From positions 1 to 64,000 of the forward strand of contig NZ_BMRN01000023.1 of NCBI RefSeq assembly GCF_014648655.1: a stretch of DNA of 64,000 nucleotides, given 5' to 3'. The notes beneath the pieces are model-generated. The model was not told the DNA's origin. It worked only from the letters and a program-made list of their open reading frames with translations, and did no database searches. This stretch comes from Streptomyces atratus. GTDB taxonomy: Bacteria; Actinomycetota; Actinomycetes; Streptomycetales; Streptomycetaceae. Positions 19,101 through 36,469 of the stretch are shown here, piece after piece (the stretch's first letter is position 1; every line of letters begins with the position of its first letter). A program made the translations under genes and the position numbers.

Positions 19101-19220
19101 GATCAGCTCCCGGTCCGCGTCGTCCAGGAAGAAGAAGCGCTCCAGCTCCGTACGGGACGGCGCCCCGTGATACGCCGCGTACGCGGCAGCCTGCTCATCC
19201 GTCAAAAACTCGACCGGCAC
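16164..19220 (-). CDS. tnpA: Tn3-family transposase
   Basis: A full-length 1,018-residue transposase. The first 165 residues match the DUF4158 N-terminal domain found in Tn3 transposases; the C-terminal 400 residues form the DDE_Tnp_Tn3 catalytic domain. Catalytic acids are visible as ASVDGMRF (Asp near 709), IVTDTASYSD (Asp near 778) and QEGRHALAR (Glu near 912). No frameshift is seen. It starts 90 bases inside the right inverted repeat and should act on both 38-bp ends, making cointegrates. Confidence 0.97.
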   Translation of the reverse strand: MPVEFLTDEQAAAYAAYHGAPSRTELERFFFLDDADRELIESKRRAHNRLGFAAQLTTARYLGVFLDDPTSVPPEVVDYLAEQLDIGDPSVLKVYGEWENTRLEHVRELRRVLEYREFAEAEGELRERVDARAWTTGEGPKALFDAASGWLRERRVLLPGVTTLTRLVASVREAANQRLWDTLYGMLSVGQRAVLDSLLTVPPGERVSELDRLRRGPVRVSGPQMRRALERAEEIAGLGMGALDVSGIPPRRLAELSRYGVDGKASLLRRHSDARRLATLLATTVYLTSRAVDAALDLLEVLIATKLLARAERESAKEKLKTLPRVERASAKLATAFQVVFDTTSEQVDTDTGEIAPPKVESLEGMWAAIEQVVPRHELAAAIAALFELTPPLDSDADEAWRAMLVNRFGTVRPFLRLLVAVVDFDATPEGEAVLCVLLSLPELMGRKKVGPAEIDAGLLTGSWRRLVLSAPHLEPGTVDWKAYTFCVLEHLHRMLRSKQVFARNSSKWGDPRAKLLAGEAWQQARPTVLASLNLPGEAGGHLAARAALLDGTYQEVAGRAPDNAQIVFDDDGRLHFAALEPEPKPASLLDLRAAVNAMLPRVDLPEVLLEVFSWTGADQAFTSITGGEARLRDLHVTIAALLVAQGCNVGYTPVLGSVDALKYGRLSHVDQTYLRLATYRAANAALISHQASIGLAQSWGGGLVASVDGMRFVVPVPSVYARPNPKYFGRRGGATWLNMINDQAAGLGGKVVAGTPRDSLYVLDVLYDRDGGKRPEMIVTDTASYSDIVFGLLTLAGFAYAPQLADLPDQKMWRIDRAADYGAFQDAARGRIDLARIERHWEDILRIIGSIHTGAVRAYDVIRMLSRDGRPTPLGDAIAHYGRIAKTLHILRLADEPGYRRQIKVQANLQEGRHALARKIFHGRAGQLYQRYQDGMEDQIGALGLVLNALVLFNTRYMDAAVQQLREDGFDVRDEDVARLSPFVRHHVNMLGRYSFQLPDLPGGLRPLRAPDTTDDA

Positions 19221-22309: not shown

Positions 22310-22539
22310 CTTGCTCAGCTGCCTGGCGGGCCTGCCCCCGTGCTTCGCTTCGACTCTGCCCATGCCGCTCACGTCCTCACCCTCGCCCTGCCTCGACCCA
22401 CTCCCAGGTGCCGATGGTCCCTTCCGGGGGCTGACCGGTACCGCTCCGGACAGGCTGGGGGAGCCGTTCGGACAAGAGGTCGGCCACAGGGCTCTTCGCG
22501 GCGTGATCTGCGCCGCTCGGGTGGCCGGTTCAGGACGAT

Positions 22540-23148
22540 TCAGTGCGCGGTCGGCTGCGCAGGGCGGCAGTCGTCGATGTCGAACCCGAGCCTGCTGACC
22601 ACACCGACGACGCCTTCCAAACGCCAGGTCGACCGAACGGCCAGAGGGACGTCACTACGGTGGTGAAGGCGTCCCTCCAGCACGACCATGCCGTCCCGGA
22701 CGGAAACGGCGACGGCGCCGGGTGGCAGGCCCAGCGCGCTGACCAGGACCTCCTCCACCACCTGCTGACGGATCTCCTCGTCCGTACGCAGGAAGACCCG
22801 CAGCAGGTCGCGGCGGGTGGCGATACCGATGAGGCGGTCCTCCTCATCCACCACGGGCAGGCGGTCGACGCCCTGACGTTCCATCAGTCGTGCGGCATCC
22901 GAGACCCGTTGCTCCGGATGGATGGTGACCGCCGGGGTCGTCATCAGCTCTCCCGCGGCCGTGGCCGCAGAGCCGTGTGCGAGATCGGCGCAGGAGACCA
23001 CCCCGACCACCTTGTCATCGTGGTCGACGACCGGCAGTGCGCGGATACGGTGCCGATCCAGCAACCGCACCACGACGTCCAACGGCGTCTGCCGGCTTGC
23101 GCAGACGACCTCGCTGGTCATGACTTCGCCGACGGCGCGCGTCTTCAT
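22540..23148 (-). CDS. CBS-domain pair plus BON domain protein
   Basis: A 202-residue cytosolic protein. ATG 23,148 was chosen because GGAGGGA lies just upstream; a longer open frame is Pro/Arg-rich. Two CBS motifs (VGEVMTSEVV...ALPVVDHDDKVVGVVS and GELMTTPAVT...RLPVVDEEDRLIGIAT) occupy residues 5-120, followed by a BON domain (GVVGVVSRLGFDIDD) near 135-195. CBS pairs sense adenine nucleotides; BON domains bind lipids or other ligands. Such proteins are members of DosR-type dormancy regulons, which fits the neighbours. Confidence 0.9.
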   Translation of the reverse strand: MKTRAVGEVMTSEVVCASRQTPLDVVVRLLDRHRIRALPVVDHDDKVVGVVSCADLAHGSAATAAGELMTTPAVTIHPEQRVSDAARLMERQGVDRLPVVDEEDRLIGIATRRDLLRVFLRTDEEIRQQVVEEVLVSALGLPPGAVAVSVRDGMVVLEGRLHHRSDVPLAVRSTWRLEGVVGVVSRLGFDIDDCRPAQPTAH

Positions 23149-23344
23149 GGCGCTTCCCTCCTTCACGGTGCGAGCGGGAGGCGGGCAGGCCTTGCTCCCC
23201 GCCGGGTGACAGTGCCTCTGCCTCGAGGCACCTGCCGGCCGCCTCGCCGCCCCTTCAGCCTCGCAGCCACCCTGCGCCGCGGCGCAGGGCCCAGACGTAC
23301 CCGGTAGGGGACCGACCCGCCTCGCACCGGAGGGCCGGGAGACT

Positions 23345-23743
23345 CTAATCCCGCCCGCTGATGGCCTGGCCACCACGCCACGGTGGGGGAGTGGCCGACC
23401 TGCGGGCCGCCTCCTTGCGGTGCAGGACCCGAGTCATCTGGCTGCGGAGGCGGTCCTGCAACCGGTCCGCCAGTTCATGTGCCGTCGCCTCCTGGGCGTG
23501 CACGACCACAAGAGTGTTCCCCACAACGAGCTCGGCCCCGGCAGACCAGGGCTGCTCGACGTGGTGCGCCGCCGCCTTCGCGATCCTCACCTTGCCGCTG
23601 ACGTCTGGAACTCCGGGCCGGTTGAAAGCCTTGTCGACCTTGGTCCGAACGTACGCGAGCGCCTCTTCGTCCACATCGCCTTCCGCTCGCACCTGTACTG
23701 CGACGGTGGAGGTGACGTGGGTGCCGGTGTCCTTTGCAGTCAT
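23345..23743 (-). CDS. Ribosome hibernation / sigma-54 modulation (HPF/RaiA-like) protein
   Basis: A 132-residue protein with the beta-alpha-beta S30EA fold visible as TSTVAVQVRAEGDVDEEALAYVRTK, then VRIAKAAAHH, ELVVGNTLVVVHAQEATAHELADRLQDRLRSQM. It would bind the 30S subunit and silence ribosomes during stasis. It lacks the long C-terminal dimerisation domain of long HPF. It is divergent from devR, with two DevR-type boxes in the 368-base gap, so DevR control is likely. Confidence 0.82.
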   Translation of the reverse strand: MTAKDTGTHVTSTVAVQVRAEGDVDEEALAYVRTKVDKAFNRPGVPDVSGKVRIAKAAAHHVEQPWSAGAELVVGNTLVVVHAQEATAHELADRLQDRLRSQMTRVLHRKEAARRSATPPPWRGGQAISGRD

Positions 23744-23828
23744 CTGCTCCGCTCCTTCGATCGTTGGGCAGCGGCTTCAGACTTCTGCGAGGACCGGCGT
23801 GGGCCCAGGGCTGTCAGGCCCCAGGAAC

Positions 23829-23842
23829 GGGGCCATAGGGCC
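23829..23842. promoter_or_regulatory. DevR/OsdR-type box upstream of the hibernation factor
   Basis: GGGGCCATAGGGCC fits the RGGNC-N4-RGSCC pattern shared by seven sites in this cluster. It lies 86 bases upstream of the hibernation-factor start. A hairpin (GGCCCC/GGGGCC) partly overlaps it. Confidence 0.5.
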
Positions 23843-24000
23843 TCCCTCTCCAGGGCCGCCGGACTCGCCCTTCGGCAGTGTGGGTCCGACCGGCTGCCGG
23901 GAGCCGCCAGGGGGCGTGGTCCTCGACGTGGACGTGTCCGGTCCGCCAGTTCGTCCCCGCACGGCACCACTGCTTCTGGCCGGGGGAGACTCTGCGGGAA

Positions 24001-24018
24001 CAGGGCCGACCGGCCCTG
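24001..24018. promoter_or_regulatory. Palindromic DevR/OsdR-type box upstream of devR
   Basis: CAGGGCCGACCGGCCCTG has perfect 8-base arms around a 2-base centre. It lies 94 bases upstream of devR, which suggests autoregulation. The central 16 bases are the exact reverse complement of the box before the PPOX gene at 33,612. Confidence 0.6.
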
Positions 24019-24111
24019 GTCCCTCGGCCCGGACCCGGAAACGATGCCGGTACGGAGACCGATACGGCCCAAGTGGACATCGACGAGTGACGCGGAACCA
24101 GGGAGCAAGTG

Positions 24112-24804
24112 ATGGCGGACAGCAAGCAGCCCGGCCCCGACAGCCCGATCCGGGTCTTCCTGCTGGACGACCACGAGGTGGTACGACGTGGAGTGCGCGA
24201 CCTGCTGAACGACGAGCCGGACATCGATGTGATCGGCGAGGCCGGCACCGTGGAGCAGGCCCTGGTGCGCGTCCCCGCACTGCGCCCGCAGGTGGCGGTC
24301 CTGGACGTCCGGCTGCCCGACGGTGACGGCGTGACCGTGTGCCGGGAGCTGCGCTCGCGCATGCCGGAGCTGGCCTGCCTGATGCTGACCTCCTTCGACG
24401 ACGAGGAGGCGCTGCTGGACTCGATCATGGCGGGTGCGTCCGGATACGTTCTGAAGCAGATCCAAGGATCGGACCTGGTGTCCGCGGTACGCACCGTGGC
24501 CCGCGGCCAGTCCCTGCTGGATCCGAGCGCCACCACCAGGCTGATGGCCCGTCTTCGGAGCGGGCGGCAGCAGGAAGAAGAGCAGGACGCCCTGCTCGGT
24601 CTGACCGAGCGGGAGCGTGAGATCCTCGCCCTGATCGGCGAGGGCCTCACCAACCGCCAGATCGGCCAGCGGCTGTACCTCGCCGAGAAGACGGTGAAGA
24701 ACCACATCTCCCGCCTGCTCGCCAAACTCGGCGTGGAGCGCCGTATCCAGGCCGCGGTCATAGCCACCCAGGTCCAGGACCGGCAGAGGCAGGAAGGGCG
24801 CTGA
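24112..24804 (+). CDS. devR: Dormancy response regulator DevR/DosR (OsdR-like), NarL family
   Basis: A 230-residue NarL/FixJ regulator, read from ATG 24,112 (GGGAG 6 bases upstream; an overlapping GTG is one codon earlier). The receiver domain has acidic pocket DD19-20, phospho-acceptor Asp65 in [13 protein letters not shown], and Lys in GYVLKQIQG. The LuxR-type HTH reads [21 protein letters not shown] then [18 protein letters not shown]. The match to mycobacterial DevR is close throughout, including the DVRLPDG and EGLTNRQIG stretches. It should switch on genes for hypoxia or nitric-oxide stress from the boxes in this cluster. Its cognate kinase gene next door is destroyed (see 24,970). Confidence 0.93.
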
Positions 24805-24969
24805 AGTCCCGGGCCGGAAGGACCTGTAATCGCCGCTGCCCGCACCGCCTGGCATGCCTTCCTCCCCTGGCAGTGAGTCCGATCTCATACCGCTCTCATA
24901 CCGCCGTCTGCCGCGGGCCGACAACGTGGCCCCGACGAGGATGATCGGCCGTCGGCAGGGTGAGGGGCT

Positions 24970-25380
24970 TTGGAAGAATCGCCGGCGAGAGGCCCCGAGG
25001 GTGCCCGGGTCCGGCTGCCGCAGCAGCTGCTGGAGGAGTTGCAGGCCCGCCTGGACGCGGCCCGTGGCACCCGCGACCGCGTGCACAGTCTGCTGGAAGC
25101 GGTCCTCTCGGTCGGCCGTGACGACGAGATGCGCCGCGGCGGCTTTCCCGACGGCTCCATGGAGCCCAAGGCCGAGACAGCGGCCCGGTTCGTCGAGCGC
25201 ACCGGAGGCCCGGCCGCGATCGGTGCTCTGGACGCGGCGTACGAGATCGTTCACGGCAGGCCGGGCACGCTGATCCGTCCGAACCCAACGGGCGGCCGAC
25301 CTGCGACCGGAGTCAGCCGGACCGGGCCTCGAGCCACCGACGGTAGGCGGCAACCGCCGTCGGCAGCGTCGGGAAGATGA
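24970..25380 (+). pseudogene. Chimeric remnant: DevS-like kinase N-terminus joined to carbamate kinase C-terminus
   Basis: Codons 1-47 read like the start of a DevS sensor kinase (VRLPQQLLEELQARLD, then RDRVHSLLEAVLSVGRD), matching the intact kinase at 36.1 kb. At about 25,120 the text becomes the end of carbamate kinase (DGSMEPKAETAARFVE, then AAIGALDAAYEIVHGRPGT). The join is in frame, but both GAF domains, the kinase core and most of carbamate kinase are gone. The original stop is also lost and the frame runs into the 3' end of the SulP gene on the other strand. It is a deletion scar, not a functional gene. Confidence 0.82.
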
Positions 25381-27031
25381 GATCCGTCCCGACCGAGCCC
25401 GCGAGACCGTACGCATTCAGGTCGTCCAGCAGGTCCTGCTTGACCCGGGCGAGGGCGAACACGATGCCGCGGCCGCTCAGTTCGCGGCGCAGTTCGTCGA
25501 CCGCGTCGAGGGCGGTGATGTCGACCTCCACGTTCGCCTCGGTGTTGAGGACGAACCAGCGGACGGGATCGGTCTGTTGGGCGACCGCGGCCAGCGCACG
25601 GCGCCGGAAGTCCTCCGCGTTGGCGAAGAACAGCGGCGAGTCGTAGCGGTAGACCAGCAGACCGGGGATCGTACGGGCCTGGGGGTAGTCGTCCACGTCG
25701 TGCATGCCCGCCATGCCGGGCACCAGCCCCTCCACCGCGTCGTGCGGGCGGGCCACCCGGGTCAGCAACTCGGCCACCGACAGGCCCACAGCCACGACCA
25801 CGCCGTACAGGATGTCCAGGGCGAGCACCCCGGCCAGGCAGCCGAGCGCGAGCAGCAGTTCGCGGCGGCGGAAGGACGCCAGGCGGCGGAAGCCCGCGAG
25901 GTCGATCATCCGCACGGCGGCGTAGACGACGAGCGCGCCCAGCACGGCGGCGGGGGTGCGGGTCAGCAGCGGACTGAGGAAGAGCAGGACGGCCAGCACC
26001 GCCGCCCCGGCGACCAGGGAGTACGCCTGGCTGCGGGCGCCCGCCGAGGAGGCGAGGGCGGTGCGGCTGGCGCTGCTGCTCACCGGGAAGCCGTGCAGGG
26101 CGGCGGCACCCAGGTTGGCCGTGCCCAGGGCGAGGAACTCCTGGTTGGCGTCGAGCCCGGGCCCATCTGCCTCGCGGTCGGTGAACGCCCGTGCGGTGAG
26201 GATGAAGTCGGTGTACGCGACCAGGAGCACGCCGAGGGCGGGCAGCACCAGGTGCGGCAGCTCGCTCAGGTCGGGCAGGGCGAGGTCCGGCAGCCCCGAG
26301 GGGACCGTGCCGATCACCTTGATGCCGTACCGGTCGTCGAGGTCGAAGGCCACCACGGCCGCCGTACCGAGGACCATGGTGAGCAGCGGCCCGGGCAGCG
26401 CACGGACGTAACGGGCCACCAGGAAGAGGAAGGCGAGCGCGGCGGCCGAGAAGACGACCGTGTTCGGGTGCGCCTCGTCCAGATGGCTGACGTACGACCA
26501 CAGTTGGGGGAAGAACTCGGAACTGGTCGTCCTCACCCCGGTGAGTTTGGGCACCTGGTCCACCATCATGATCAGGGCCACGCCCGCGAGGTAGCCGATC
26601 AGGACGGGGCGGGAGAGCAGGTCCGCGAGAAAGCCCAGCCGCACCGTCCGCGCCACGAGGCACAACAGCCCGACCGTGGCCGCGAGGCCGGCCGCCAGCG
26701 AGGCGTAGCGCCCGGAGTTCCCCGCGGCGAGCGGGCCGACCACGGCGGCCGTCATGATGGCGGTCGTCGACTCGGGACCGACCGACAGCAGGCGCGAGGA
26801 ACCGAACAGCGTGTACAGCGCCAGGGCCGGCAGGATCGCCCACAGCCCGGCGACCGGCGGCAGCCCGGCCACACCCGCGTACGCCATGACCTGCGGCACG
26901 AGGTAGGCCGCCACGGTCACTCCGGCCAGCAGGTCGCCCTTCAGCCACGCACGCCGATAGCCGAGAAGCTCGGCGAGGCCGGGCACCAGGCGGTGCCACC
27001 CGGGAATGTGCCCGTCCGAACCGCCGGTCAT
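25313..27031 (-). CDS. SulP-family anion transporter with STAS domain
   Basis: A 572-residue SLC26/SulP transporter. ATG 27,031 was chosen: the protein then begins MTGGSDGHIPGWHRLVPG and the first transmembrane region follows. About 12 membrane segments span residues 30-440, including YLVPQVMAYAGVAGLPPVAGLWA and the VGPESTTAIMTAA signature. The C-terminal STAS domain (about 450-560) includes VYRYDSPLFFANAEDFRRR. Substrate is sulfate, bicarbonate or a similar anion. SulP genes also sit in mycobacterial DosR regulons (Rv1739c type). Its promoter shares the region holding a DevR-type box at 27,164. Confidence 0.93.
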   Translation of the reverse strand: MTGGSDGHIPGWHRLVPGLAELLGYRRAWLKGDLLAGVTVAAYLVPQVMAYAGVAGLPPVAGLWAILPALALYTLFGSSRLLSVGPESTTAIMTAAVVGPLAAGNSGRYASLAAGLAATVGLLCLVARTVRLGFLADLLSRPVLIGYLAGVALIMMVDQVPKLTGVRTTSSEFFPQLWSYVSHLDEAHPNTVVFSAAALAFLFLVARYVRALPGPLLTMVLGTAAVVAFDLDDRYGIKVIGTVPSGLPDLALPDLSELPHLVLPALGVLLVAYTDFILTARAFTDREADGPGLDANQEFLALGTANLGAAALHGFPVSSSASRTALASSAGARSQAYSLVAGAAVLAVLLFLSPLLTRTPAAVLGALVVYAAVRMIDLAGFRRLASFRRRELLLALGCLAGVLALDILYGVVVAVGLSVAELLTRVARPHDAVEGLVPGMAGMHDVDDYPQARTIPGLLVYRYDSPLFFANAEDFRRRALAAVAQQTDPVRWFVLNTEANVEVDITALDAVDELRRELSGRGIVFALARVKQDLLDDLNAYGLAGSVGTDLIFPTLPTAVAAYRRWLEARSG

Positions 27032-27163
27032 GAGCCGCCCTTCGCCTTCAGGATCCACCGGAGCGCCGCCATCCTTCCAGCTGGGGGGCGCGGTCCACGA
27101 GATGCCCACCGGGTCCCACGCGTACCGTGCACAACGAGTTCGCCCCAACAGGCCCCGTAGAAA

Positions 27164-27177
27164 GGGACCTTCAGCCC
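27164..27177. promoter_or_regulatory. DevR/OsdR-type box between the SulP and DoxX-like genes
   Basis: GGGACCTTCAGCCC, 100 bases upstream of the DoxX-like start and 133 upstream of the divergent SulP start. It also resembles the mycobacterial DosR box (GGGACT-WW-AGTCCC). Confidence 0.55.
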
Positions 27178-27276
27178 AACGGCCGCAGACCTTCGGCATC
27201 CGGCGGCGCGCGGCGCCCGCGACAAGAGTGAGGAGTGTCAGGACAAGGACCAGACATCCCCGAAGGGATCACCGCC

Positions 27277-27897
27277 ATGGCCGTGCACGAGCACCCTCAC
27301 CGGAGCCCAGGTTTCCACCTGTCCTACCGCAGAAACCGCACCGGCTCCGCGATCGCCGTGTCGGCACGCGCCGACACCCACGCCGTGGGGGCCCACGCCC
27401 TGGCGTCCCTGCGTCTGCTCACCGGTTTCGTCTTCCTGTGGGCGTTCCTGGACAAGACTTTCGGCTTCGGCTACGCGACCGAGTCCGGCAAGGGCTGGAT
27501 CGACGGCGGGTCGCCGACGAGGGGCTTCCTCGGTTCCGTTGCCGCCGGGCCGATGGAGTCGACGTTCCACTCGTGGGCCGGTGACGCCTGGGCGGACCGG
27601 CTGTTCATGATGGGCCTGCTCAGCATCGGCGTGGCCCTCATGGCCGGCGTGGCTCTGCGGCCGGCGGCGGTGGCGGGCACGGCGATGATGGCGTTGATGT
27701 GGATCGCCGAGTGGCCGCCGGCCAAGCACCTGTCGGACGGGTCGCCGAGCATGTCGACGAATCCCTTCGCCGACTACCACGTCATCTACGCGGTGGCTCT
27801 GATCGCCGTGGCGGCCGCGGGCGCGGGTGCCACCTGGGGCCTGGGCCGGCTGTGGGCGCGGCTCCCGATCGTCCGCGACCACACCTGGCTGCGCTGA
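27277..27897 (+). CDS. DoxX-like small membrane protein
   Basis: A 206-residue protein. ATG 27,277 follows GAAGGGA by 8 bases; an earlier GTG has no room for a ribosome site. Four membrane segments are visible, starting with ALASLRLLTGFVFLWAFLDK, which resembles the first DoxX helix, and ending in ALIAVAAAGAGATWGLGRLW. DoxX-like proteins take part in redox or thiol stress handling at the membrane. The family match is partial, so I name it with care. A terminator hairpin follows 8 bases after the stop. Confidence 0.75.
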   Translation: MAVHEHPHRSPGFHLSYRRNRTGSAIAVSARADTHAVGAHALASLRLLTGFVFLWAFLDKTFGFGYATESGKGWIDGGSPTRGFLGSVAAGPMESTFHSWAGDAWADRLFMMGLLSIGVALMAGVALRPAAVAGTAMMALMWIAEWPPAKHLSDGSPSMSTNPFADYHVIYAVALIAVAAAGAGATWGLGRLWARLPIVRDHTWLR

Positions 27898-27905
27898 AAG
27901 CCAAC

Positions 27906-27940
27906 GGTGCGACGGCCGCTTGTTCGGGGACCGTCGCACC
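27906..27940 (+). terminator. Hairpin terminator after the DoxX-like gene
   Basis: GGTGCGACGG (27,906-27,915) pairs perfectly with CCGTCGCACC (27,931-27,940) around a 15-base loop. Confidence 0.7.
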
Positions 27941-27951
27941 AAGCACTGCAC

Positions 27952-27985
27952 AGGACCATCGGCCGGGCTGAAGGACCAGTGGCCC
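27952..27985. promoter_or_regulatory. Two tandem DevR/OsdR-type boxes upstream of the stress-protein gene
   Basis: AGGACCATCGGCCG (27,952-27,965) and AGGACCAGTGGCCC (27,972-27,985) are spaced 20 bases start to start, two helical turns, and lie 75-108 bases before the universal stress protein start. Paired sites at about this spacing are common in DosR-controlled promoters. Confidence 0.6.
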
Positions 27986-28019
27986 CTGCCTCGAAAGACC
28001 CCCTGAACACGATGCTGGA

Positions 28020-28043
28020 ATCGGGTCCCTTCGGGTCCCCGAT
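28020..28043 (+). promoter_or_regulatory. 5'-leader hairpin just before the stress-protein ribosome site
   Basis: ATCGGG (28,020-28,025) pairs with CCCGAT (28,038-28,043), with an inner CCC-TTC-GGG stem. It ends 2 bases before the AGGAGG ribosome site (28,046-28,051) and could affect mRNA stability or initiation. Confidence 0.35.
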
Positions 28044-28059
28044 CCAGGAGGTGGAGATC

Positions 28060-28965
28060 ATGTCCCGTACCATTACCGTAGGTTTCGACGGCTCGCCCGA
28101 GAGCCGGGCCGCCGCCGAATGGGCTGCCCGCGAGGCGAAGCTGCGCGGACTACCGGTGAGGCTCGTCCAGGTCTGGGAACCGGTACCGGAGCCCATGGCC
28201 CAGGCCCCGCTCCTCGGCGTCGAGACCCGTCAGCACTGGACCGAGAGGGTGCCGCGCCAGGCCGCCGAAGGGCTGCGGCTGCGCCACCCCGGCGTCGAGG
28301 TGACCACCGAACACGTCAGCGGACGGGCCGCCGAGGCCTTGGCCCGCGCCGCGCAGGACGCCGAACTGCTCGTCCTCGGCTCTCGCGGCCTGGGCGGACT
28401 CGGCGGCTTCCTGGTCGGCTCGGTCGGCCTCGCAGCCGTGGCGTCCACCGAGCGACCCGTTGTCCTGGTCCGCGCCGGAGAGCAGGCCACCGACGAGCAC
28501 GAGATGGACAAGGCCGGCATCCCGTCCACCGCCGCCCCCTTCCGCCCCGTCGTCCTCGGACTCGACGTCGGCAGCCCCGACGAGGCGCTGATCGGGTTCG
28601 CCTTCGACGCCGCCACGCGCCGGAACGTGCCGCTGCACGTCGTGCACGGCTGGAACCCGCCGCCCTACTACGCCTACGGCATGGCCCTGGAGGCCGCGGT
28701 CCAGCGGGAGCTGGCGGGGGTCGAATCCACTGTCCTGACCGAGGAACTGCGCCCCTGGCGGCAGAAGTTCCCCGACGTCGAGGTCGTGGCGGAGTCCCGC
28801 TACGGCAGCCCGTCCAACCTCCTGATCGACGCCTCTCGAGAGGCCTCTCTGGTCGTCGTCGGCCGACGCATCCGCCGCTCCTCCGTCGGCGCCCACATCG
28901 GCACCGTCACCCACGCCGTCCTGCATCACGCCACCGCCCCCGTCGCCGTCGTCGCACACGACTGA
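28060..28965 (+). CDS. Tandem universal stress protein
   Basis: A 301-residue protein made of two USP domains (residues about 1-145 and 160-301). Domain 1 starts TITVGFDGSPESRAAAEWA and has the ATP-binding motif GSRGLGGLGGFLVGSVG. Domain 2 starts VVLGLDVGSPDEALIGFAF and its motif is degenerate (GRRIRRSSVGAHIGTVTHA). ATG 28,060 follows AGGAGG by 8 bases. Tandem USPs are hallmark DosR-regulon products in mycobacteria. It is followed 29 bases later by the alcohol dehydrogenase gene, likely one operon. Confidence 0.95.
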   Translation: MSRTITVGFDGSPESRAAAEWAAREAKLRGLPVRLVQVWEPVPEPMAQAPLLGVETRQHWTERVPRQAAEGLRLRHPGVEVTTEHVSGRAAEALARAAQDAELLVLGSRGLGGLGGFLVGSVGLAAVASTERPVVLVRAGEQATDEHEMDKAGIPSTAAPFRPVVLGLDVGSPDEALIGFAFDAATRRNVPLHVVHGWNPPPYYAYGMALEAAVQRELAGVESTVLTEELRPWRQKFPDVEVVAESRYGSPSNLLIDASREASLVVVGRRIRRSSVGAHIGTVTHAVLHHATAPVAVVAHD

Positions 28966-28994
28966 CGCGCCACTGCAGAAAGAGAGAAGAGACC

Positions 28995-30017
28995 ATGAAG
29001 GCAGCAGTCGTACGAGCCTTCGGCGAGCCCCTGGTCATCGAGGAGCGCCCCGACCCCGAGCCCGGTCCCGGCCAGGTCCGCGTCCGTGTCGAGGCCTCCG
29101 GGCTGTGCCACACCGACATTCACGCCGCGCACGGTGACTGGCCCGTCAAGCCCACCCCGCCGTTCGTCCCCGGCCACGAGGGCGTCGGCCTCGTCGAGAA
29201 GCTCGGTGAGGGCGTCACGCATCTGAGCGCCGGTCAGCGGGTTGCCGTGCCGTGGCTGGGCCGGGCGTGCGGGCGGTGCGAGCACTGCCTGTCCGGCTGG
29301 GAGACGCTGTGCGAGCAGCAGGTCAACACCGGTTTCGGCTGCGACGGAGGGTACGCCGAGAAGATGCTGGCCTGGGCCGACTTCGCCCAGCCTGTGCCCG
29401 AGGGCGTCACCGCCTTCGAGGCCGCCCCGCTGGCCTGCGCCGGCGTCACCTCCTACAAGGCTCTGAAGGTCGCCGACGTCAAGCCCGCGCAGTTGGTCGC
29501 GATCTCCGGCGTCGGTGGCCTGGGCCACCTCGCCCTGCAGTACGCCAAGATCGCAGGCGCTACGGTCGCCGCGATCGACGTCACCGACGACAAGCTCCAG
29601 CTCGCCACCGAGCTCGGCGCCGACATCGTCATTGACGCCCGCAAGCAGGATGCCGGCAAGGAGCTGAAGGAGCACGGCGGTGCCCACGCGGCGATCGCCC
29701 TCGCGGTGAACCCGGCCGCGTTCGAGGCCGTCAACTCCGGTCTGCGGCGCGGCGGCAAGCTCGTGATGGTGGCCCTGCCCGCACACGGCACCATCCAGGT
29801 CCCCATCTTCGACACCGTCCTGAACGGCACCTCGGTGATCGGCTCCATCGTCGGCACACGACAGGACCTCGCCGAGGTCTTCCAGCTCCACGCGGCCGGC
29901 CGTACGAAGGTCATCTACGAGACCCGTCCGCTCGCCTCCGTGAACGAGTCGATCGACGCGGTGTTGCGCGGCGAGATCAAGGCCCGGGTCGTCTTCGACC
30001 TCGGCGCGGGACGGTGA
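28995..30017 (+). CDS. Zinc-dependent alcohol dehydrogenase (AdhP/AdhA type)
   Basis: A 340-residue medium-chain dehydrogenase. The catalytic zinc ligands are visible in SGLCHTDIHA (Cys) and PGHEGVG (His-Glu); the structural zinc site is the cysteine cluster RACGRCEHCLSGWETLC. The NAD-binding motif is SGVGGLGHLALQYAK. It should interconvert ethanol and acetaldehyde or similar, using NAD(H), a sensible sink for reducing power under low oxygen. It is co-transcribed with the stress-protein gene. Confidence 0.95.
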   Translation: MKAAVVRAFGEPLVIEERPDPEPGPGQVRVRVEASGLCHTDIHAAHGDWPVKPTPPFVPGHEGVGLVEKLGEGVTHLSAGQRVAVPWLGRACGRCEHCLSGWETLCEQQVNTGFGCDGGYAEKMLAWADFAQPVPEGVTAFEAAPLACAGVTSYKALKVADVKPAQLVAISGVGGLGHLALQYAKIAGATVAAIDVTDDKLQLATELGADIVIDARKQDAGKELKEHGGAHAAIALAVNPAAFEAVNSGLRRGGKLVMVALPAHGTIQVPIFDTVLNGTSVIGSIVGTRQDLAEVFQLHAAGRTKVIYETRPLASVNESIDAVLRGEIKARVVFDLGAGR

Positions 30018-30022
30018 GGACG

Positions 30023-30352
30023 ATGGACCTCCCGATCGTCGTCGGTGTCGACGGCTCGGAGCCCAGCACGCGGGCCGTCGGCCGGGCGGCCGACGAGCCA
30101 CCCTGCGAGGCGCGTCACTACGGCTCCAGGGGCCGGGGCACCGACGTGTCCGGCCTCGAGCCGCTGCTGCGCCCGGAGGTCGTTGCCGTCGTCGGAGCTG
30201 GACGCAAACCCGGCTCGGTCGGTCGGGCGATCCTGCACCACCTGAAGGCGGGCGGATGCACGCGCCGCATTTTCGCGGTGAACCCGAACTCCAGCCACAT
30301 CCTCGGCGTGCCGTCCTATCCGTCCGACAGCGCCCTGCCCAGGACCCCCGAC
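30023..30352 (+). pseudogene. Fused remnants: universal stress protein start and acyl-CoA synthetase CoA-binding domain
   Basis: Codons 1-25 (MDLPIVVGVDGSEPSTRAVG onward) are the start of another universal stress protein. Without a stop the frame passes into GLEPLLRPEVVAVVGAGRKP, GSVGRAILHHLKAGG and IFAVNPNSSHILGVPSYPS, which is the CoA-binding domain of NDP-forming acetate-CoA ligase / Pat-type proteins. Neither domain is complete. The piece ends where CBS sequence begins in another frame. It is 6 bases downstream of the alcohol dehydrogenase stop. Confidence 0.78.
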
Positions 30353-30648
30353 TGCTCGCCGACCACGACATCAGCGGACTGCCGGTGGTCGACGAGGACG
30401 AGAAGGTCATCGGCGTCATCTCCGAGACCGACTTGATGGCCCGGCAAGCGGAGACACCCGACCCGTACGAGCCGAAGAATCGCATCCGGTTCGCGGCACC
30501 GACGCGAAGCGCCAGGCGGCAGGGCGTGAGGGCGACGGCTCGCACCGCCGGTCAGCTGATGACCGAACCACCCGTCACCGTGCACGCCGAGGACACCGTC
30601 GTCGAGGCCGCCCGGACCATGGTCCACAGGCGCATCGGGAGGCTCCCG
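30353..30648 (+). pseudogene. Fragment of a CBS-domain protein
   Basis: The frame reads LLADHDISGLPVVDEDEKVI then GVISETDLMARQ, the second half of a CBS domain, followed by GQLMTEPPVTVHAEDTVVEA and ARTMVHRRIGRLP, the first half of another. The start and the end of the gene are missing. CBS proteins like this one belong to the same stress regulon, and the fragment is paralogous to, but distinct from, the intact CBS-BON gene at 22.5 kb. Confidence 0.78.
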
Positions 30649-31443
30649 CACCGCTGGCTCACCGCGCTCGTCGACGCCCTGCGCGCCGCGTCCACCCCGG
30701 CGAGCGCGGCGGCCGACGACCGCGACCCGCGGGAGCTGGACACCGCTGCCGCGCAGGACCTGTTGCGCCAGGTGGCCGGCTTCGGGCAGCCCGCCCCGCT
30801 GTTCGTGATCACTGGCGGTGACCCGTTCCAGCGCCCCGACCTGACCGACCTCATCGCGCACGGCAGGAAAGTCGGGGTCCGGGTTGCTGTCTCCCCCTCT
30901 GGCACCCCGACGCTCACCGATGAGCGATTGCGCGCCGTGCACGCTGCGGGCGCGTCCGGGCTCTCGCTCCGCCTGGACGGCTCCACCGCCGAACTGCACG
31001 ACGCCTTCCGCGGGGTGCCCGGGGTGTTCCGCTGGACCCTGGACGCCTGGGACACAGCGCGTTGCCTCGGCATGAAGGTGCAGATCAACACGACGGTCGC
31101 CCGGCACAACCTGTACGACCTCCCCGACATCGTCCGCCTGGTCGCCGAGCACGGGGCGATGCTGTGGAGTGCCTTCTTCCTGGTGCCCACCGGCCGCGGC
31201 CGCACCCTCGGCGCACTGACCCCCGCCGAGGTCGAGGACGTCCTCAACTTCGTCCACGACGTCGGCCTGGCGGTGCCCGCCAAGACCACCGAAGCCCACC
31301 ACTTCCGCCGCGTCGCCCTGCAGCGCCAAGTGCTCGCGAACAGCGGCGACGACCACGTGGCCGTGCTCGGACTCGGGCCGCTGTACCGGGAACTGCGCAA
31401 GCGATCGGCCGAGTTGGGCCTTGACGCCGGAACGCGCCGGGTG
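30649..31443 (+). pseudogene. Fragment of a radical SAM/SPASM protein lacking its iron-sulfur N-terminus
   Basis: From about 30,713 the frame reads DRDPRELDTAAAQDLLRQ, LFVITGGDPFQRPDLTDLI, LSLRLDGSTAELHDAF, KVQINTTVARHNLYDLPDIV and FFLVPTGRGRTLGALT. This is the core of a radical SAM/SPASM maturase-type protein. The N-terminal CxxxCxxC cluster motif is absent, replaced by the CBS fragment in the same open frame, and the C-terminal SPASM region is gone. It cannot bind the radical SAM cluster. Open frame length alone would make it look like a 417-residue gene. Confidence 0.8.
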
Positions 31444-31591
31444 CGGCGTCCGCCGCCTGATGCTCGCCGCGGGCGGCCACGGCATCGCCCACGCCAAGGG
31501 CCACTTTGAACCTGCCCGGATCCTGGCGGTCGCCTCCCTCGTCGGCTCGCTCGGCGTCGTCCTGCCGGCCACCGCCCTGCCCGCCACCTGA
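31444..31591 (+). pseudogene. C-terminal tail of an unidentified membrane protein
   Basis: In a different frame from the radical SAM piece, the sequence reads GVRRLMLAAGGHGIAHAKGH then FEPARILAVASLVGSLG, ending LPATALPAT and a stop at 31,589-31,591. It has a coding-like pattern and one hydrophobic segment. I do not recognise the family. It is the fifth fragment in the chain that starts at 30,023. Confidence 0.5.
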
Positions 31592-31624
31592 CCCGTGGCC
31601 ACGACGAAGAGAAGAGGAGACATC

Positions 31625-32644
31625 ATGCGTACCCGAGCCCCGCTGGACGCCGCCACCGTGGAGTCGCTCCTGACGGCGGCCGTGGCAGCCCCGTCGATCC
31701 ACAACACACAGCCCTGGCGCTTCCGCCTGGATCCCGACAGCCAGGCATTGGAGGTCCGTTCGGCGCCGGAGCGAACACTGCCGCTGACCGACCCGATGCA
31801 CCGCGCCCAGTATCTGTCCGTGGGCGCCGCGGTCTTCAACCTCCGGCTCGCCGCCGTCCACCAGGGCCGGCGGCCGGAGGTGAGACTGCTGCCGGATCCG
31901 CACGAACCAGGGCTGCTGGCCACCGTACGACTGACCGGTCGACTCGGCGCGGACGACCAGCCGTCGGACCCTGGCCTCTATGAGGCCATCGCGCGGCGGC
32001 ACACCAGCCGGATGCCGTTCACCGGCCGACCGGTGCCTGAGCCGATCGTGGCGGAGATGACGGCGGCCGCGTGCGCCGCCGGCGCACGCCTGCACGTGCC
32101 GGACATCGCCGGAACACGGAAGCTGCTGCGTGTGACCGCCGCAGCCGAAGCACGCAACCACGCTCACCCGGAGCGCACCGCCGAAACCCGAACCTGGATC
32201 ACCGCCCCGGGAGCAGACACCCGCTACGGGATGCCCGTCACCGCCCTCGGGCCGCCCGACGCGGCCGCGCGGATGCCGGTGCGGGACTTCACCGGTGCGC
32301 TGCCCGCCTTCCGTCTGCCCGCCCTCTGGTTCGAACGCCACGTTCAGATGGCCCTGCTGTGGATGTCCCACGACCGGCGGGAGGATTGGCTGCGGGCGGG
32401 CCAGGCCCTGCAGTACGTCCTGCTCACGGCCACCGCCCACGGGCTGCGCACGTCACTCCTGTACCAGGCCATGGAATGGCCCGACCTGCGGGCGGCGACG
32501 GCCCTCCCGGGACACAAGCGGTGCCATCCGCACATGCTGATCAGATTCGGCTACGGACCGGACGGCGGCCGCACCCCGCGAGCGCCCGGGCACTGCGCTG
32601 TTCGTCCCGCAGCACCGCCCGCAACCGCTACCGGAACGAGCTGA
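31625..32644 (+). CDS. Acg/nitroreductase-like FMN-binding protein
   Basis: A 339-residue protein starting at ATG 31,625 (AGAGGAGA 6 bases upstream). Family text includes AAVAAPSIHNTQPWRFR near the start, RRHTSRMPFTGRPVPEPIV in the middle and a duplicated nitroreductase fold, as in mycobacterial Acg and Rv3131, which are DosR-controlled. These proteins bind flavin but may sequester rather than turn over substrate. The last 25 residues are Pro/Thr/Ala-rich and differ from the usual ending, so a 3' frameshift is possible. A decayed duplicate of its middle part lies at 32,866. Confidence 0.88.
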   Translation: MRTRAPLDAATVESLLTAAVAAPSIHNTQPWRFRLDPDSQALEVRSAPERTLPLTDPMHRAQYLSVGAAVFNLRLAAVHQGRRPEVRLLPDPHEPGLLATVRLTGRLGADDQPSDPGLYEAIARRHTSRMPFTGRPVPEPIVAEMTAAACAAGARLHVPDIAGTRKLLRVTAAAEARNHAHPERTAETRTWITAPGADTRYGMPVTALGPPDAAARMPVRDFTGALPAFRLPALWFERHVQMALLWMSHDRREDWLRAGQALQYVLLTATAHGLRTSLLYQAMEWPDLRAATALPGHKRCHPHMLIRFGYGPDGGRTPRAPGHCAVRPAAPPATATGTS

Positions 32645-32719
32645 GGACGCGGTCTTTTCCGGCGCCGTCCAAGGAACACGGCGGACAGGGCCGCAGCTGT
32701 CCGCCGCAAGGACGGCCCG

Positions 32720-32800
32720 TCAGCCTGCGCCGCAGGCAGCCCCGAGCTCGCGCCGGGTGACGAGCTCCGCCTCGATCCGTAAGAACATGGTGTCCGCTGC
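32720..32800 (-). pseudogene. C-terminal remnant of a PPOX-family gene
   Basis: The minus frame reads ADTMFLRIEAELVTRRELG and then AACGAG and a stop. It is clearly paralogous to the end of the intact gene at 33,157 (RDAVFVRIESEMVTGRELRG), with matching DNA over about 60 bases. Upstream sequence is lost. Confidence 0.75.
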
Positions 32801-32865
32801 TGTTGCCCAGGGGCGCGGACTGTCCGTGACAGCCGTTTCGCGCTCCGCCGCCAGACCGTTCAGAC

Positions 32866-33020
32866 CGTGGCGCTACCGGTGATGATCACAGCCATGGGTC
32901 CGCGGGAAGCATCCGGGCGGACACCGGTGCGGGACTCACCGGTGCGCTACCCGCGCCACGGATGTCCGCCCTGCGCTTCGAACGCCATGCCCAGGTGGCC
33001 TGCTGCGGACGTCCCACGAC
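32866..33020 (+). pseudogene. Remnant of a duplicated nitroreductase-like gene
   Basis: DNA here aligns over about 150 bases with 32,230-32,385 of the intact nitroreductase-like gene, sharing GCCGGTGCGGGACT-type text, the TTCGAACGCCA segment and GTCCCACGACC. Small insertions and deletions break the frame several times. With the PPOX remnant at 32,720 it indicates an old duplication of the nitroreductase/PPOX pair. Confidence 0.7.
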
Positions 33021-33156
33021 CTGGTTCCCTCACAGGGCCGCAGTCGGCGGTCGGTCATATGGGTACCGGGCCGACGGAGTGACTCCGCGCCGCCGGCACC
33101 CGCCTGTGTCCGCGCGGCCGGAGTCAGCGCCCGCGGTCGCTGCGGGCTGCGCCTCA

Positions 33157-33576
33157 CTACGTGCCAAGCGCTCCCCTGAGCTCGCGTCCGGTGACCATCT
33201 CGGACTCGATCCGTACGAACACCGCGTCCCGCAGGGGCATCCAGGAGCTGGGGCCGGTCTGCGACAGCCGCTCGTGCTCAGCGGGATCGGTCAACACGGT
33301 GGCCCGTCCGGTGACGACCACGCTCCAGCCGGACCGGGTTGCCGCGTCGAACTCGTCCGCCTCGAAGGCGACTACGACGCCGTCGATGGCGTGTACGAGG
33401 TCCGAGTCCGGCGATGTGCACAGCAGGACGGAGGCGTCCGTGTCCAGGGAGAAGTTGATGGGGAGGACCGCGGGCAGTGCCTGTCGGGTGTAGACCACAC
33501 GGCCGACCGGCACCTTGGCCAGGAGGCGCAGGCACTCCTGCCGGTCGAGGGCGCGAAAGGCGTCGTTCGGGGACAT
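33157..33576 (-). CDS. Pyridoxamine 5'-phosphate oxidase-family (PPOX) FMN-binding protein
   Basis: A 139-residue split-barrel protein. ATG 33,576 follows GGAGG by 8 bases. Recognisable text: ECLRLLAKVPVGRVVYTRQALPAVLPINF, SVLLCTSPDSDLVHAIDG, VAFEADEFDA and GWSVVVTGRA. The fold binds FMN, F420 or heme and reduces small molecules; members are frequent in DosR-type clusters. A perfect palindromic DevR-type box lies 36 bases upstream of the start. Confidence 0.9.
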   Translation of the reverse strand: MSPNDAFRALDRQECLRLLAKVPVGRVVYTRQALPAVLPINFSLDTDASVLLCTSPDSDLVHAIDGVVVAFEADEFDAATRSGWSVVVTGRATVLTDPAEHERLSQTGPSSWMPLRDAVFVRIESEMVTGRELRGALGT

Positions 33577-33611
33577 CAGGTCATCCTCCCTGTGGGCGCC
33601 GGGAAGGGGGT

Positions 33612-33627
33612 AGGGCCGGTCGGCCCT
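33612..33627. promoter_or_regulatory. Palindromic DevR/OsdR-type box upstream of the PPOX gene
   Basis: AGGGCCGGTCGGCCCT has perfect 7-base arms around GT. It is the reverse complement of the core of the devR box at 24,001 and lies 36 bases before the PPOX start. Confidence 0.6.
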
Positions 33628-33757
33628 CTTTTGTTGTGTCCCGGCAGGAGCGGGGTGCGGCCGCGCGGCCTCAGGAGTCGCGCGGGCGATCCGGAGCACG
33701 GATCCGAGGAGGTGCGGGCGGTCGGATCCGACCTTGAGGGCCCTTTGCCCGGCCGTA

Positions 33758-33771
33758 GGGACCCATGGCCC
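33758..33771. promoter_or_regulatory. DevR/OsdR-type box upstream of the NarK remnant
   Basis: GGGACCCATGGCCC, 125 bases before the start of the truncated nitrate/nitrite transporter gene, suggesting that gene was once part of the regulon. Confidence 0.5.
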
Positions 33772-33895
33772 ATGCCGCTCGGGCGTCCGGATGCGGACAG
33801 TGGCTGCGAGGCGTCCGATCTGTGGGGCAGCGAACCTGTGGTTCCCATGCGCCCCCGCGCCACCGAACCAACGGGAGAGGGAAGGGGCGGACAAC

Positions 33896-34122
33896 ATGAA
33901 CCAGCCGACGACGACGGAGAGCGAGAGGCCGGCCTCGGGCGCGGCCGGTGCCCGGCCAGGCATGGCTGATGCCGGCCCTGGCCACCATCGGTTTCGCCGT
34001 CAACTTCTGGGCATGGGCGCTGCTCAGCCCGCTCGGTCCGCGCTTCAAGGACTCCCTCGACCGGTCTTCGTTCCACCAGTCGCTGCTGGTGGCGCTGCCG
34101 GTCGTGGCCGGCTCCCTGGGCC
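33896..34122 (+). pseudogene. Truncated NarK-type nitrate/nitrite transporter (MFS), N-terminus only
   Basis: The start MNQPTTTESERPASGAAGAR is in one frame; after a 1-base shift near 33,960 the text continues LMPALATIGFAVNFWAWALL, SPLGPRFKDSLDRSSFHQSL and LVALPVVAGSLGR, the first two membrane segments of NarK-like transporters. All later segments are missing. Sequence from 34,123 to 34,366 shows short fragments I cannot assign. Loss of nitrate import would matter for anaerobic respiration in this regulon. Confidence 0.8.
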
Positions 34123-34366
34123 GCAGGCGGCCGGCAGGCGGACGACTTCTACCGGGACCGCTGATTGCACGGCAAGGTGGTGCGCCCGTTCGTGGTCCCC
34201 CGGGTACTGAAGTGTCGCGGGCTCTTTTCCGAACCGCAGGCTCGCGATGAGCTCCACGAACCCTGCGCTCCAAACCGGGGACATCAGTTCTCATCACCGA
34301 CATTGATCACGCGGAACCGAGGCAGGTGATTCCTGAACTCACGTCGAAGCGACATCCACGGAAAAG

Positions 34367-36100
34367 TTACACACCCAGCGGGACGACCCACTCGATGACG
34401 GTGCCACTCGGGTCGTTCGAAGACAGGCTGAACGTGCCGCCCATCTCCTCCGCGCGCCTGCAGAGGTTGGCCAGGCCGCTGCGGCGGGTGACCGCCGGGT
34501 CGATCCCGCGGCCGTTGTCGGCCACGCGCAGCTGCAGGGCGGCGCCGGTGACATCGACGCTGACGTCGACGGTGGTGGCGTGTGCGTGCCGAGCGGCGTT
34601 GGACAGGGCCTCGCCGAGCACGGCCAGCAACTGTTCGGCCTGTTCGGCGGACACGGCCGTGTCCAGCAACCCGGTCATGCGTAGAGCCGGGGCAAAGGCA
34701 AGCGATTCGGTGGCCCATTCAGTGGCCGCCACCAGCTGGGCGCGCAGCCCGCTGCCGGGACGGGTCTGATCGTGCTCGCGCAGGCCGTAGATGGTGGAAC
34801 GGATGATCTTGATGGTGTCATCCAGGTCGTTCACAACCCGCTGGATCCGCTCGCCGACCTGCGGTCGGTCGGTCACTCGGCCCAGCGTGGACTGCAACGA
34901 CAGCGCGCCGGCGAACAGCCGCTGGATGACCAGGTCATGCAGGTCTCGGGCAATCCTGTCGCGGTCATTGAGCACGAGCATGCGCTCCGTGTCCCGCCGG
35001 TGCTCAGCGACGTCCAAGGCCAACGCAGCCTGGTTGCCGAACCCGGTGACCATGTCGACAACGGCGTCCGTGAAGAAAGCGCTGCCCGGTACGTTCGCCA
35101 CCTGCAGCACCCCGCGGACGTGCTCCCGGGTGCCGAGCGGTACGAAGAACGCCGGCCCCAGCTCCACCACCGAGGCGCTGCCGCCCTCGGCGCGCGGGTC
35201 GGCGCTCACGGCATCACTGACGATCCTCTCCCCGGACGTGAAGACCTTCGCAGCCAGCGCCGCGGCGGGCAGCACCAGCCCGCGGACCTCCTCGGCCAAC
35301 GCTCCCGAGGCGGCCTCGATGACCAACTCGCCGCGGTCACCGACCGGCACCCCCAAGGTGACCAGGTCCGCACCGGCCATCTCCCGCACGGTGGCCGTGA
35401 CAGACTCCAGCACCGCGGCGGGCTCCACACCGGACAGCAGGCTACGCGTCAGCTCGTTGCTGGCCGCCAGCCACCGCTGTCGGCGGTCCGCATCCTCGTA
35501 CAGCCGGGCGTTGTCGATCGCCACACCGGCCGCCGCGGCCAGGGTCCGCAGCACCGCCTCGTCGTCGGTGTCGAACTCCGCTCCGCTCTGTTTGTTGGTC
35601 AGGTACAGGTTTCCGAAGACCTGGTCGCGGACCCGGATGGGGGCGCCGAGGAAGCTGGTCATCGGCGGATGCCCGGAGGGGAAGCCGACAGACGCCGGAT
35701 GCTGGGCCAGGTTCGCCAGGCGCAGTGGTTCCGGGTGACGGATGAGCTGCCCGAGGATGCCCTCGCCGCGCGGGTAGTGCCCGATCCGGGCGATGGCCTC
35801 CTCGTCGATGCCGACCGTGACGAACTGCTTGATCGTGCCTTCCTCGCCCAGGACGCCGAGTGCCCCGTATCGGGCGTCGACCAGGGTGACCGCCGACTCC
35901 ACGATGCGGCGCAGCACCACCTCCAGGTCCAGGTCGGAGCCGACCGCCAGCACCGCGTCCAGCAGCGTGTGGACCCGGTCCCGGGCCCCCTGAGCCTGCG
36001 TCACCTGCTGCTGCAGGTCCTCCAGCAGTGCATCCAGCCGCAGCTGTGGAGACATCCCGGATGTCTCCACCTCACGCGAATCCTGCGCGCGCTCGTCCAC
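34367..36100 (-). CDS. devS: DevS/DosS-like two-GAF sensor histidine kinase
   Basis: A 577-residue kinase read from GTG 36,100, placed 5 bases after AGGGAG; upstream in-frame starts are weaker. GAF-A (about 58-200) carries the SGHPPMTSFLG segment; His144 falls where the haem proximal His of DosS/DosT lies (by motif comparison, inferred). GAF-B spans about 225-365. The HisKA_3 dimerisation helix DRDRIARDLHDLVIQRLFA has His388, followed by a HATPase domain with NAARHAHA and DNGRGID motifs. It would sense oxygen, NO or redox through haem and phosphorylate DevR. It is 10 kb from devR, unlike the usual adjacent arrangement. Confidence 0.92.
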   Translation of the reverse strand: MDERAQDSREVETSGMSPQLRLDALLEDLQQQVTQAQGARDRVHTLLDAVLAVGSDLDLEVVLRRIVESAVTLVDARYGALGVLGEEGTIKQFVTVGIDEEAIARIGHYPRGEGILGQLIRHPEPLRLANLAQHPASVGFPSGHPPMTSFLGAPIRVRDQVFGNLYLTNKQSGAEFDTDDEAVLRTLAAAAGVAIDNARLYEDADRRQRWLAASNELTRSLLSGVEPAAVLESVTATVREMAGADLVTLGVPVGDRGELVIEAASGALAEEVRGLVLPAAALAAKVFTSGERIVSDAVSADPRAEGGSASVVELGPAFFVPLGTREHVRGVLQVANVPGSAFFTDAVVDMVTGFGNQAALALDVAEHRRDTERMLVLNDRDRIARDLHDLVIQRLFAGALSLQSTLGRVTDRPQVGERIQRVVNDLDDTIKIIRSTIYGLREHDQTRPGSGLRAQLVAATEWATESLAFAPALRMTGLLDTAVSAEQAEQLLAVLGEALSNAARHAHATTVDVSVDVTGAALQLRVADNGRGIDPAVTRRSGLANLCRRAEEMGGTFSLSSNDPSGTVIEWVVPLGV

Positions 36101-36469
36101 CACAGCTCCCTTTACCGTCTCGCTGGCCCACCCCAAGGATGCCCGACGGGTCGAACCCGTTCGACGGCACCCTGGAGAGCAGCGAGGCAGGTCTCAGGAA
36201 GGGTGGGCAGATAGGTGATCGTCCCATGGCCGGGCCCGATGACCTCGGTTGTGACGTGGATCAGAGCCGTAGTTCAGGGTGCCCGGGCCGACGTCGTACA
36301 AGGGAGAGTCGGGTGACATCCAGTAGGCCCCCGACAGACGGGCGAATCTTGGTGGTGGCTGCGGATCCGTGTTGCTGCTGGTTTTCTCCATGAAGCGGGA
36401 GCGGCGGGAGCAGCCGGGCGGCGCCCCTGCCGACGGCCGGGGCGCCGCTCAGCTCAGGGCCGGGACCTG
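36101..36469. other. Intergenic region with overlapping palindromes, no confident gene
   Basis: Upstream of devS at 36,140-36,165 lie nested inverted repeats (ACGGGT-CGA-ACCCGT and GTCGAA-CCCG-TTCGAC). A 65-codon minus frame at 36,194-36,391 has AT-richer third positions than its neighbours and no recognised family; I do not call it a gene. Confidence 0.35.

Follow-up and report, generated by a model that had tools for sequence, protein, structure and literature searches.

The window analysed here, a 64,000-nucleotide stretch of Streptomyces atratus (contig NZ_BMRN01000023.1), contains a chain of six gene fragments at positions 30023-31591, as judged from Pfam and NCBIfam profiles and from DNA matches in relatives (Table 1). 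A sequence-only reading had described a chain of five fragments at this place. Domain searches and the breaks in the DNA matches show that the chain is real, but it has six members, fragment F having gone unnamed. When searched piece by piece, the start of a universal stress protein, a CoA-binding domain, CBS domains and a radical SAM core were found in the pieces to which that reading had assigned them. Fragment A gave Usp (PF00582) over profile positions 5-31 of 141, with an E-value of 0.0014, a match that falls short of the family cut-off. The other Pfam matches were CoA_binding_2 in B (E 2.8e-8), two CBS stretches in C (E 2.1e-18) and, in D, Radical_SAM (E 1e-10), which is entered at profile position 21; the 195-aa parent protein of E had no Pfam match. 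At the DNA level, the matches of C, F and D to relatives have E-values of 3.6e-78, 3.2e-23 and 1.2e-250, which excludes chance similarity. Moreover, the ends of the DNA matches in genus genomes coincide with the fragment borders within a few to ~20 bases.

Table 1. Features of the eroded locus (window positions; J, junction).
Feature	Coordinates	Strand	Description
Response regulator	24115-24798		Pfam
Usp (full stress protein)	28045-28962		
Fragment A	30023-30125	+	Universal stress protein, first ~34 codons (292 aa in NBC_01669)
J1 (A|B)	30125-30126		Exact microhomology not seen; on the B side the comparison is with a relative at ~85%
Fragment B	30126-30352	+	Start of a CoA-binding domain; the parent GNAT + ADP-forming acyl-CoA synthetase has 935 aa in genome G014
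417-aa ORF	30256-31509	+	Starts in B (out of frame), runs in frame through C, F and D, and ends in E (out of frame)
J2 (B|C)	30349-30352		Microhomology of 4 bp or less; relatives at ~81-85% used for both sides
Fragment C	30349-30648	+	CBS domain pair, both ends incomplete, from a 243-aa CBS/BON protein
J3 (C|F)	30648-30649		No clear microhomology; four relatives have 31-43 kb here
Fragment F	30649-30719	+	~24 codons (~70 bp) from the gene of a hemerythrin/DUF2249 protein (277 aa in S. lucensis, L070)
J4 (F|D)	30717-30719		~2 exact bp
Fragment D	30717-31456	+	TIGR04053 radical SAM/SPASM core, without the CxxxCxxC N-terminus and without the C-terminal part
J5 (D|E)	31456-31458		One untemplated base at 31457; both sides compared with NBC_01669 at ~97%
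Fragment E	31458-31591	+	C-terminal tail of a 195-aa protein, a membrane protein by its look
J6	34123-34126		NarK-like MFS transporter cut after its start; NBC_01669 has 6.0 kb here
GAF histidine kinase	34367-36136		Pfam

The borders proposed from the letters alone fared unevenly. A junction expected near 30,352 agrees with J2, where the DNA matches in relatives end. The change near 30,098, by contrast, is a 1-bp deletion inside A (near 30097) and the first true junction is J1, while the border placed at 31,443 is actually J5. The supposed junction zone at 30,650-30,713 does have joins at both ends, but the zone itself is the sixth fragment, from the hemerythrin/DUF2249 gene. The junction pattern also extends past the chain, as far as J6.

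Fragment D found its best NCBIfam model in TIGR04053, which it enters at position 28 of 366, scoring 256 bits against a cut-off of 395, and the CxxxCxxC cluster motif of that family is absent. The loss of the cluster-binding N-terminus had been anticipated, and its site could be located by comparison with Streptomyces sp. NBC_01669: in the radical SAM protein of this strain the motif CPLACLHC (C-x3-C-x2-C) stands just upstream of the break, ending six residues before the first residue common with the window copy. The predicted 417-residue ORF is present as well. Its opening ~31 codons are fragment B read in the wrong frame, and C, F and D then share a single frame that is stop-free over ~370 codons. 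This common open frame is what speaks for a new functional fusion protein made of CBS domains, a scrap of hemerythrin and a radical SAM domain. However, the radical SAM part has neither its Cys motif nor its C-terminal part, the CBS pair is incomplete, the first ~31 codons belong to an unrelated frame, and the ORF was seen in no other genome examined, among the matches listed. With motifs missing and no sign of conservation, we rejected the functional fusion, to which we attach next to no probability. On its sequence, the ORF is a relic, an accident of frame, and no function is expected of it. Predicted CBS/radical SAM ORFs like this one should be taken as a warning and not as real proteins.

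The undeleted counterpart of this chain could be found in relatives, and the comparison yielded both the lost genes and the gap sizes between all five neighbouring pairs. The earlier idea that several deletions had occurred holds, as neighbouring pairs lie kilobases apart in relatives, mostly in the same order and orientation. In two genomes (G117 and G104), A, B, C, F, D and E occur in the same order and orientation, spread over ~51 kb. G117 carries, on one 55-kb stretch, an alcohol dehydrogenase gene (Adh), the counterparts of the six fragments, an Acg-type nitroreductase gene (Acg), PNPOx and NarK, with order and relative orientation as in the window; in G104 the six counterparts and Acg are arranged as in the window. 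The full-length alcohol dehydrogenase match is inverted and lies elsewhere in the stretch in G013, G216 and G104, and no D or E was seen in the G216 stretch. Counting loci, some of which are two stretches from one genome, the A-B gap measures 2.2-4.2 kb in 6/7 loci with both genes (opposite strands in the seventh), the B-C gap 2.02-2.03 kb in 7/7, the C-F gap 31-43 kb in four genomes, the F-D gap 0.84-1.84 kb in 16/18 (wrong order in two), and the D-E gap 0.49-3.73 kb, with a median of 3.3 kb, in 53/57 (opposite strands in four). Given these gaps, ~50 kb between A and E has become 1.3 kb in the window. Combining several relatives, the ancestral order would have been Adh, stress protein, GAPDH, acyl-CoA synthetase, CBS protein and a long middle including narGHJI, followed by hemerythrin, radical SAM, cupredoxin/oxidase, the 195-aa protein, Acg nitroreductase, PNPOx and NarK.

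By gene kind, this order recalls the OsdR dormancy region of Streptomyces coelicolor, SCO0167-SCO0220 (PMC5069765). In that region SCO0198-0200 encode a stress protein, a Zn alcohol dehydrogenase and a second stress protein, SCO0212 a hemerythrin, SCO0213 a nitrate-nitrite transporter, SCO0214 a PNPOx protein, SCO0215 a nitroreductase and SCO0216-0219 narGHJI2 (PMC5069765), and genes of the same kinds are found in the intact relatives or as relics. The window also carries genes for a GAF histidine kinase and a response regulator. Unlike the S. coelicolor region, it lacks narGHJI, and only pieces are left of NarK, hemerythrin, the second stress protein, acyl-CoA synthetase, CBS and radical SAM. 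The open frames that were kept are Adh, one full stress protein, Acg, PNPOx and the two-component genes. An eroded OsdR-type island can be recognized in the group of stress protein, alcohol dehydrogenase and stress protein with two-component genes, the second stress protein being the start fragment A. The block of narGHJI, hemerythrin, NarK, PNPOx and nitroreductase is found as a remnant only: nitroreductase and PNPOx are present, NarK and hemerythrin are in pieces, and narGHJI is absent. At the matching place, narGHJI is found in NBC_01669 (Pfam) and in S. lucensis (by similarity).

The missing operon was not found elsewhere in the genome. With the NBC_01669 narGHJI operon as DNA query against the strain's own assembly, the largest match within the nar genes was 59 bp, and the NarI family (PF02665) had 0 matches in the whole assembly, which is estimated to be 99.99% complete; in a control set, 4/14 genomes were positive for PF02665. 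Since neither narGHJI nor any NarI family member was found, the strain is predicted to be without membrane-bound nitrate reductase, which seems to have been lost altogether from the genome. Searches of the same assembly for the lost parts (the A-C interval, the F-E interval, narGHJI and the J6 interval), which for the C-F middle covered chiefly narGHJI, recovered outside the window only 65-77% paralogues and short matches. We also considered a plasmid origin of the island and rejected it, as none of the 188 matching plasmid records covers 80% of the query. Fifteen of these 188 matches were listed, 14 of them at the alcohol dehydrogenase end and one, at 77% identity, at query positions 4161-5126 on the PNPOx/NarK side.

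The comparison with NBC_01669 allowed us to place most of the deletions in time. The island, at 22496-36321, is 96.7-97.8% identical to that of NBC_01669 in five blocks. Background identity between the two strains is 77-92% in the right flank and 88% on average in one core region (121 kb aligned), and left of 22496 no match was found within the 30 kb compared. An island at ~97% identity in a background of ~88% was probably exchanged recently, and the exchange probably took place between species. At the matching places, NBC_01669 has a whole stress protein gene, narI, narJ, narH and narG, a complete 424-aa radical SAM gene, the 195-aa protein and a 480-aa MFS transporter (NarK). Because NBC_01669 keeps DNA that is lost in the window, J1, J4, J5 and J6 formed after the two ~97% copies had diverged, and if narGHJI was ancestral, J3 would also be post-split. 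The additional 6.0 kb of NBC_01669 at J6 comprises the rest of NarK and, by eye, hemerythrin-like and transposase-like ORFs.

NBC_01669 has losses of its own. No counterpart of B, C or F was found in it, apart from a single 80-bp match to C at 78% elsewhere, and the strain is without acyl-CoA synthetase, CBS and hemerythrin genes. These three losses occurred after the split, because the window keeps relics of the genes. The spacing between narG and the radical SAM gene is 113 bp in NBC_01669 and ~1.85 kb in Streptomyces sp. MMG1533. Also, 1.57 kb of the cupredoxin/oxidase gene is gone from NBC_01669, and the corresponding part of the window was removed by J5. As read from these alignments, the erosion of the two copies is independent. 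If the NBC_01669 copy were a mosaic, the dating would be weaker, that of J3 above all. What gives the locus its resolution is the combination of a close relative at ~97% with different losses, an intact order in other relatives and defined breakpoints. The window also contains, at 32740-33021, two likely older relics, a PNPOx-like piece and a second Acg-type nitroreductase piece, dated as older because they are common to NBC_01669.

All six joins have 0-4 exact shared bases, and J5 alone has a base from neither side. Alignment to ~97% DNA was possible on both sides of J5 and J6 and on one side of J1 and J4; J2 and J3 were judged against relatives at ~80-89% alone, which leaves their microhomology uncertain by some bases. 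At J4, similarity to the F-side relatives runs on past the join, at 10-12 of 18 bases, so that similarity-assisted joining is possible there. A 20-bp overlap between D and E in the first alignments was discarded as a chance extension, since beyond the join only 8/20 and 4/20 bases match NBC_01669. The genome encodes Ku in two full genes/domains and one short copy. NHEJ scars in Streptomyces have 1-6 nt of microhomology in 50% of cases and nucleotide additions, including single non-templated ones, in 40% (Hoff et al., 2018; PMC5869714). The scars of S. ambofaciens resemble those of the window in their near-blunt joins, their short microhomology (0-4 bp here) and the single untemplated base, but they followed I-SceI cuts, whereas the window joins are natural and six of them lie within ~4 kb (PMC5869714). 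From these similarities we infer that NHEJ made the joins. The deletions were probably independent of one another.

The evidence for the joins comes from a single draft assembly in 243 contigs, and an assembler or gap closer faced with poor coverage might have joined contig ends that are not adjacent. The draft state of the genome agrees with such an artefact, as does the absence of the searched missing pieces from the assembly, which a coverage gap would also give. Furthermore, no other genome had the same junctions among the matches listed in 294 or 391 other genus genomes (overlapping draws), and none of 80 named loci runs from inside one fragment into the next, a weak run-on past J4 aside. 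On the other hand, exact overlaps of 0-4 bp are too little for overlap-based or k-mer-based joining. Nor is there an excess of missing DNA: in a ~150-kb core region compared with NBC_01669, length differences of at least 200 bp numbered 11, of which 6 were short here and 5 short there. NBC_01669, an independent assembly, has losses in the same island, and clean island deletions were present in 3/64 other chained loci. Specifically, 79 named loci (L065-L143) were given, 64 were chained and three had clean deletions, with four joins in total; by the criterion for chained loci, J5 and J6 of the window would fit and A, B, C and F would be invisible. We therefore consider an assembly artefact improbable. 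Smaller-scale relic chains were noticed at two of these loci, L072 (14076-14749) and L085 (11231-11547), where genes of Acg-type nitroreductases have been cut to adjacent pieces by clean deletions.

If the joins are real, they might still have arisen together, for instance if replication switched template forward several times in a single complex event. This possibility draws on the order and orientation kept by the four internal fragments, on the near-blunt character of all joins, and on the finding that at least four of them are younger than the NBC_01669 split. But NBC_01669 has different losses in the same island and Streptomyces shenzhenensis DSM 42034 (L085) has two adjacent clean deletions, which indicates that separate deletions do happen here; the results neither demand nor exclude simultaneity. 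A single event thus appears unlikely. The same preserved arrangement bears more heavily on a shattering or capture scenario, in which NHEJ randomly ligated pieces of DNA, for instance during uptake of the island. The island does look recently exchanged, and Streptomyces NHEJ repair can insert DNA (PMC5869714). However, random ligation of four internal pieces would keep both order and orientation in 1 of 384 cases (4! x 2^4), and both are fully kept; we regard this scenario as highly improbable. A further suggestion, possible though doubtful, would make the island a hot spot of deletion. In that case, two copies descended from one recent ancestor would have lost largely complementary parts independently within ~2-3% divergence, through end joining that recurred at a break-prone site or through one multi-jump replication event. 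The deletions per copy amount to at least four in the window, probably five or six, and to at least two in NBC_01669. If true, the locus would be a natural recorder of bacterial end joining eroding a gene island.

Altogether, the stretch is very probably the residue of a dispensable OsdR/DevR-type dormancy and nitrate-respiration island after NHEJ-type deletions. According to this interpretation, relaxed selection on nitrate respiration may have permitted five or more deletions (six if NarK is counted), which end joining would have closed at 0-4 bp of microhomology; ~50 kb would have been lost, and the scraps that stayed, 70-740 bp long, kept their original order. Substitution patterns were compared with the aid of outgroups. 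Nonsynonymous and synonymous changes in D, E and the NarK piece together number 13 and 8 on the window lineage and 2 and 4 on the NBC_01669 lineage; for six neighbouring genes the corresponding figures are 25 and 24, and 20 and 28. These counts are small, with 47 differences lacking an outgroup and 17 ties. Their direction weakly suggests lost constraint on the relics. A codon-based dating of the fragments was abandoned, as the changes were too few to decide.

Such decay is the work of known processes, and what distinguishes this case is an unusual density of deletions that relatives document unusually well, so that the window may be regarded as a well-resolved fossil of gene-island decay. Our literature search found no paper describing the locus or a relic chain of this kind. 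A comparable trend is the accumulation of indels in Streptomyces chromosome arms, where insertions and deletions drive divergence and low-value genes are eliminated (PMC8627663). That work deals with arms genome-wide, and no ordered relic chain is described in the excerpted text of that article (PMC8627663).

Two further features of the window deserve mention. At 16164-19220 on the reverse strand, 3.3 kb left of the island boundary, lies a full-length 1018-aa ORF with a DUF4158 domain, which we take to be a Tn3-family transposase and which is a possible means of island transfer. At 34126-34185, a stretch of ~40-60 bp is 74-95% identical in many relatives; it is found a second time, in inverted orientation, upstream of the radical SAM gene and is possibly a shared regulatory or coding motif.
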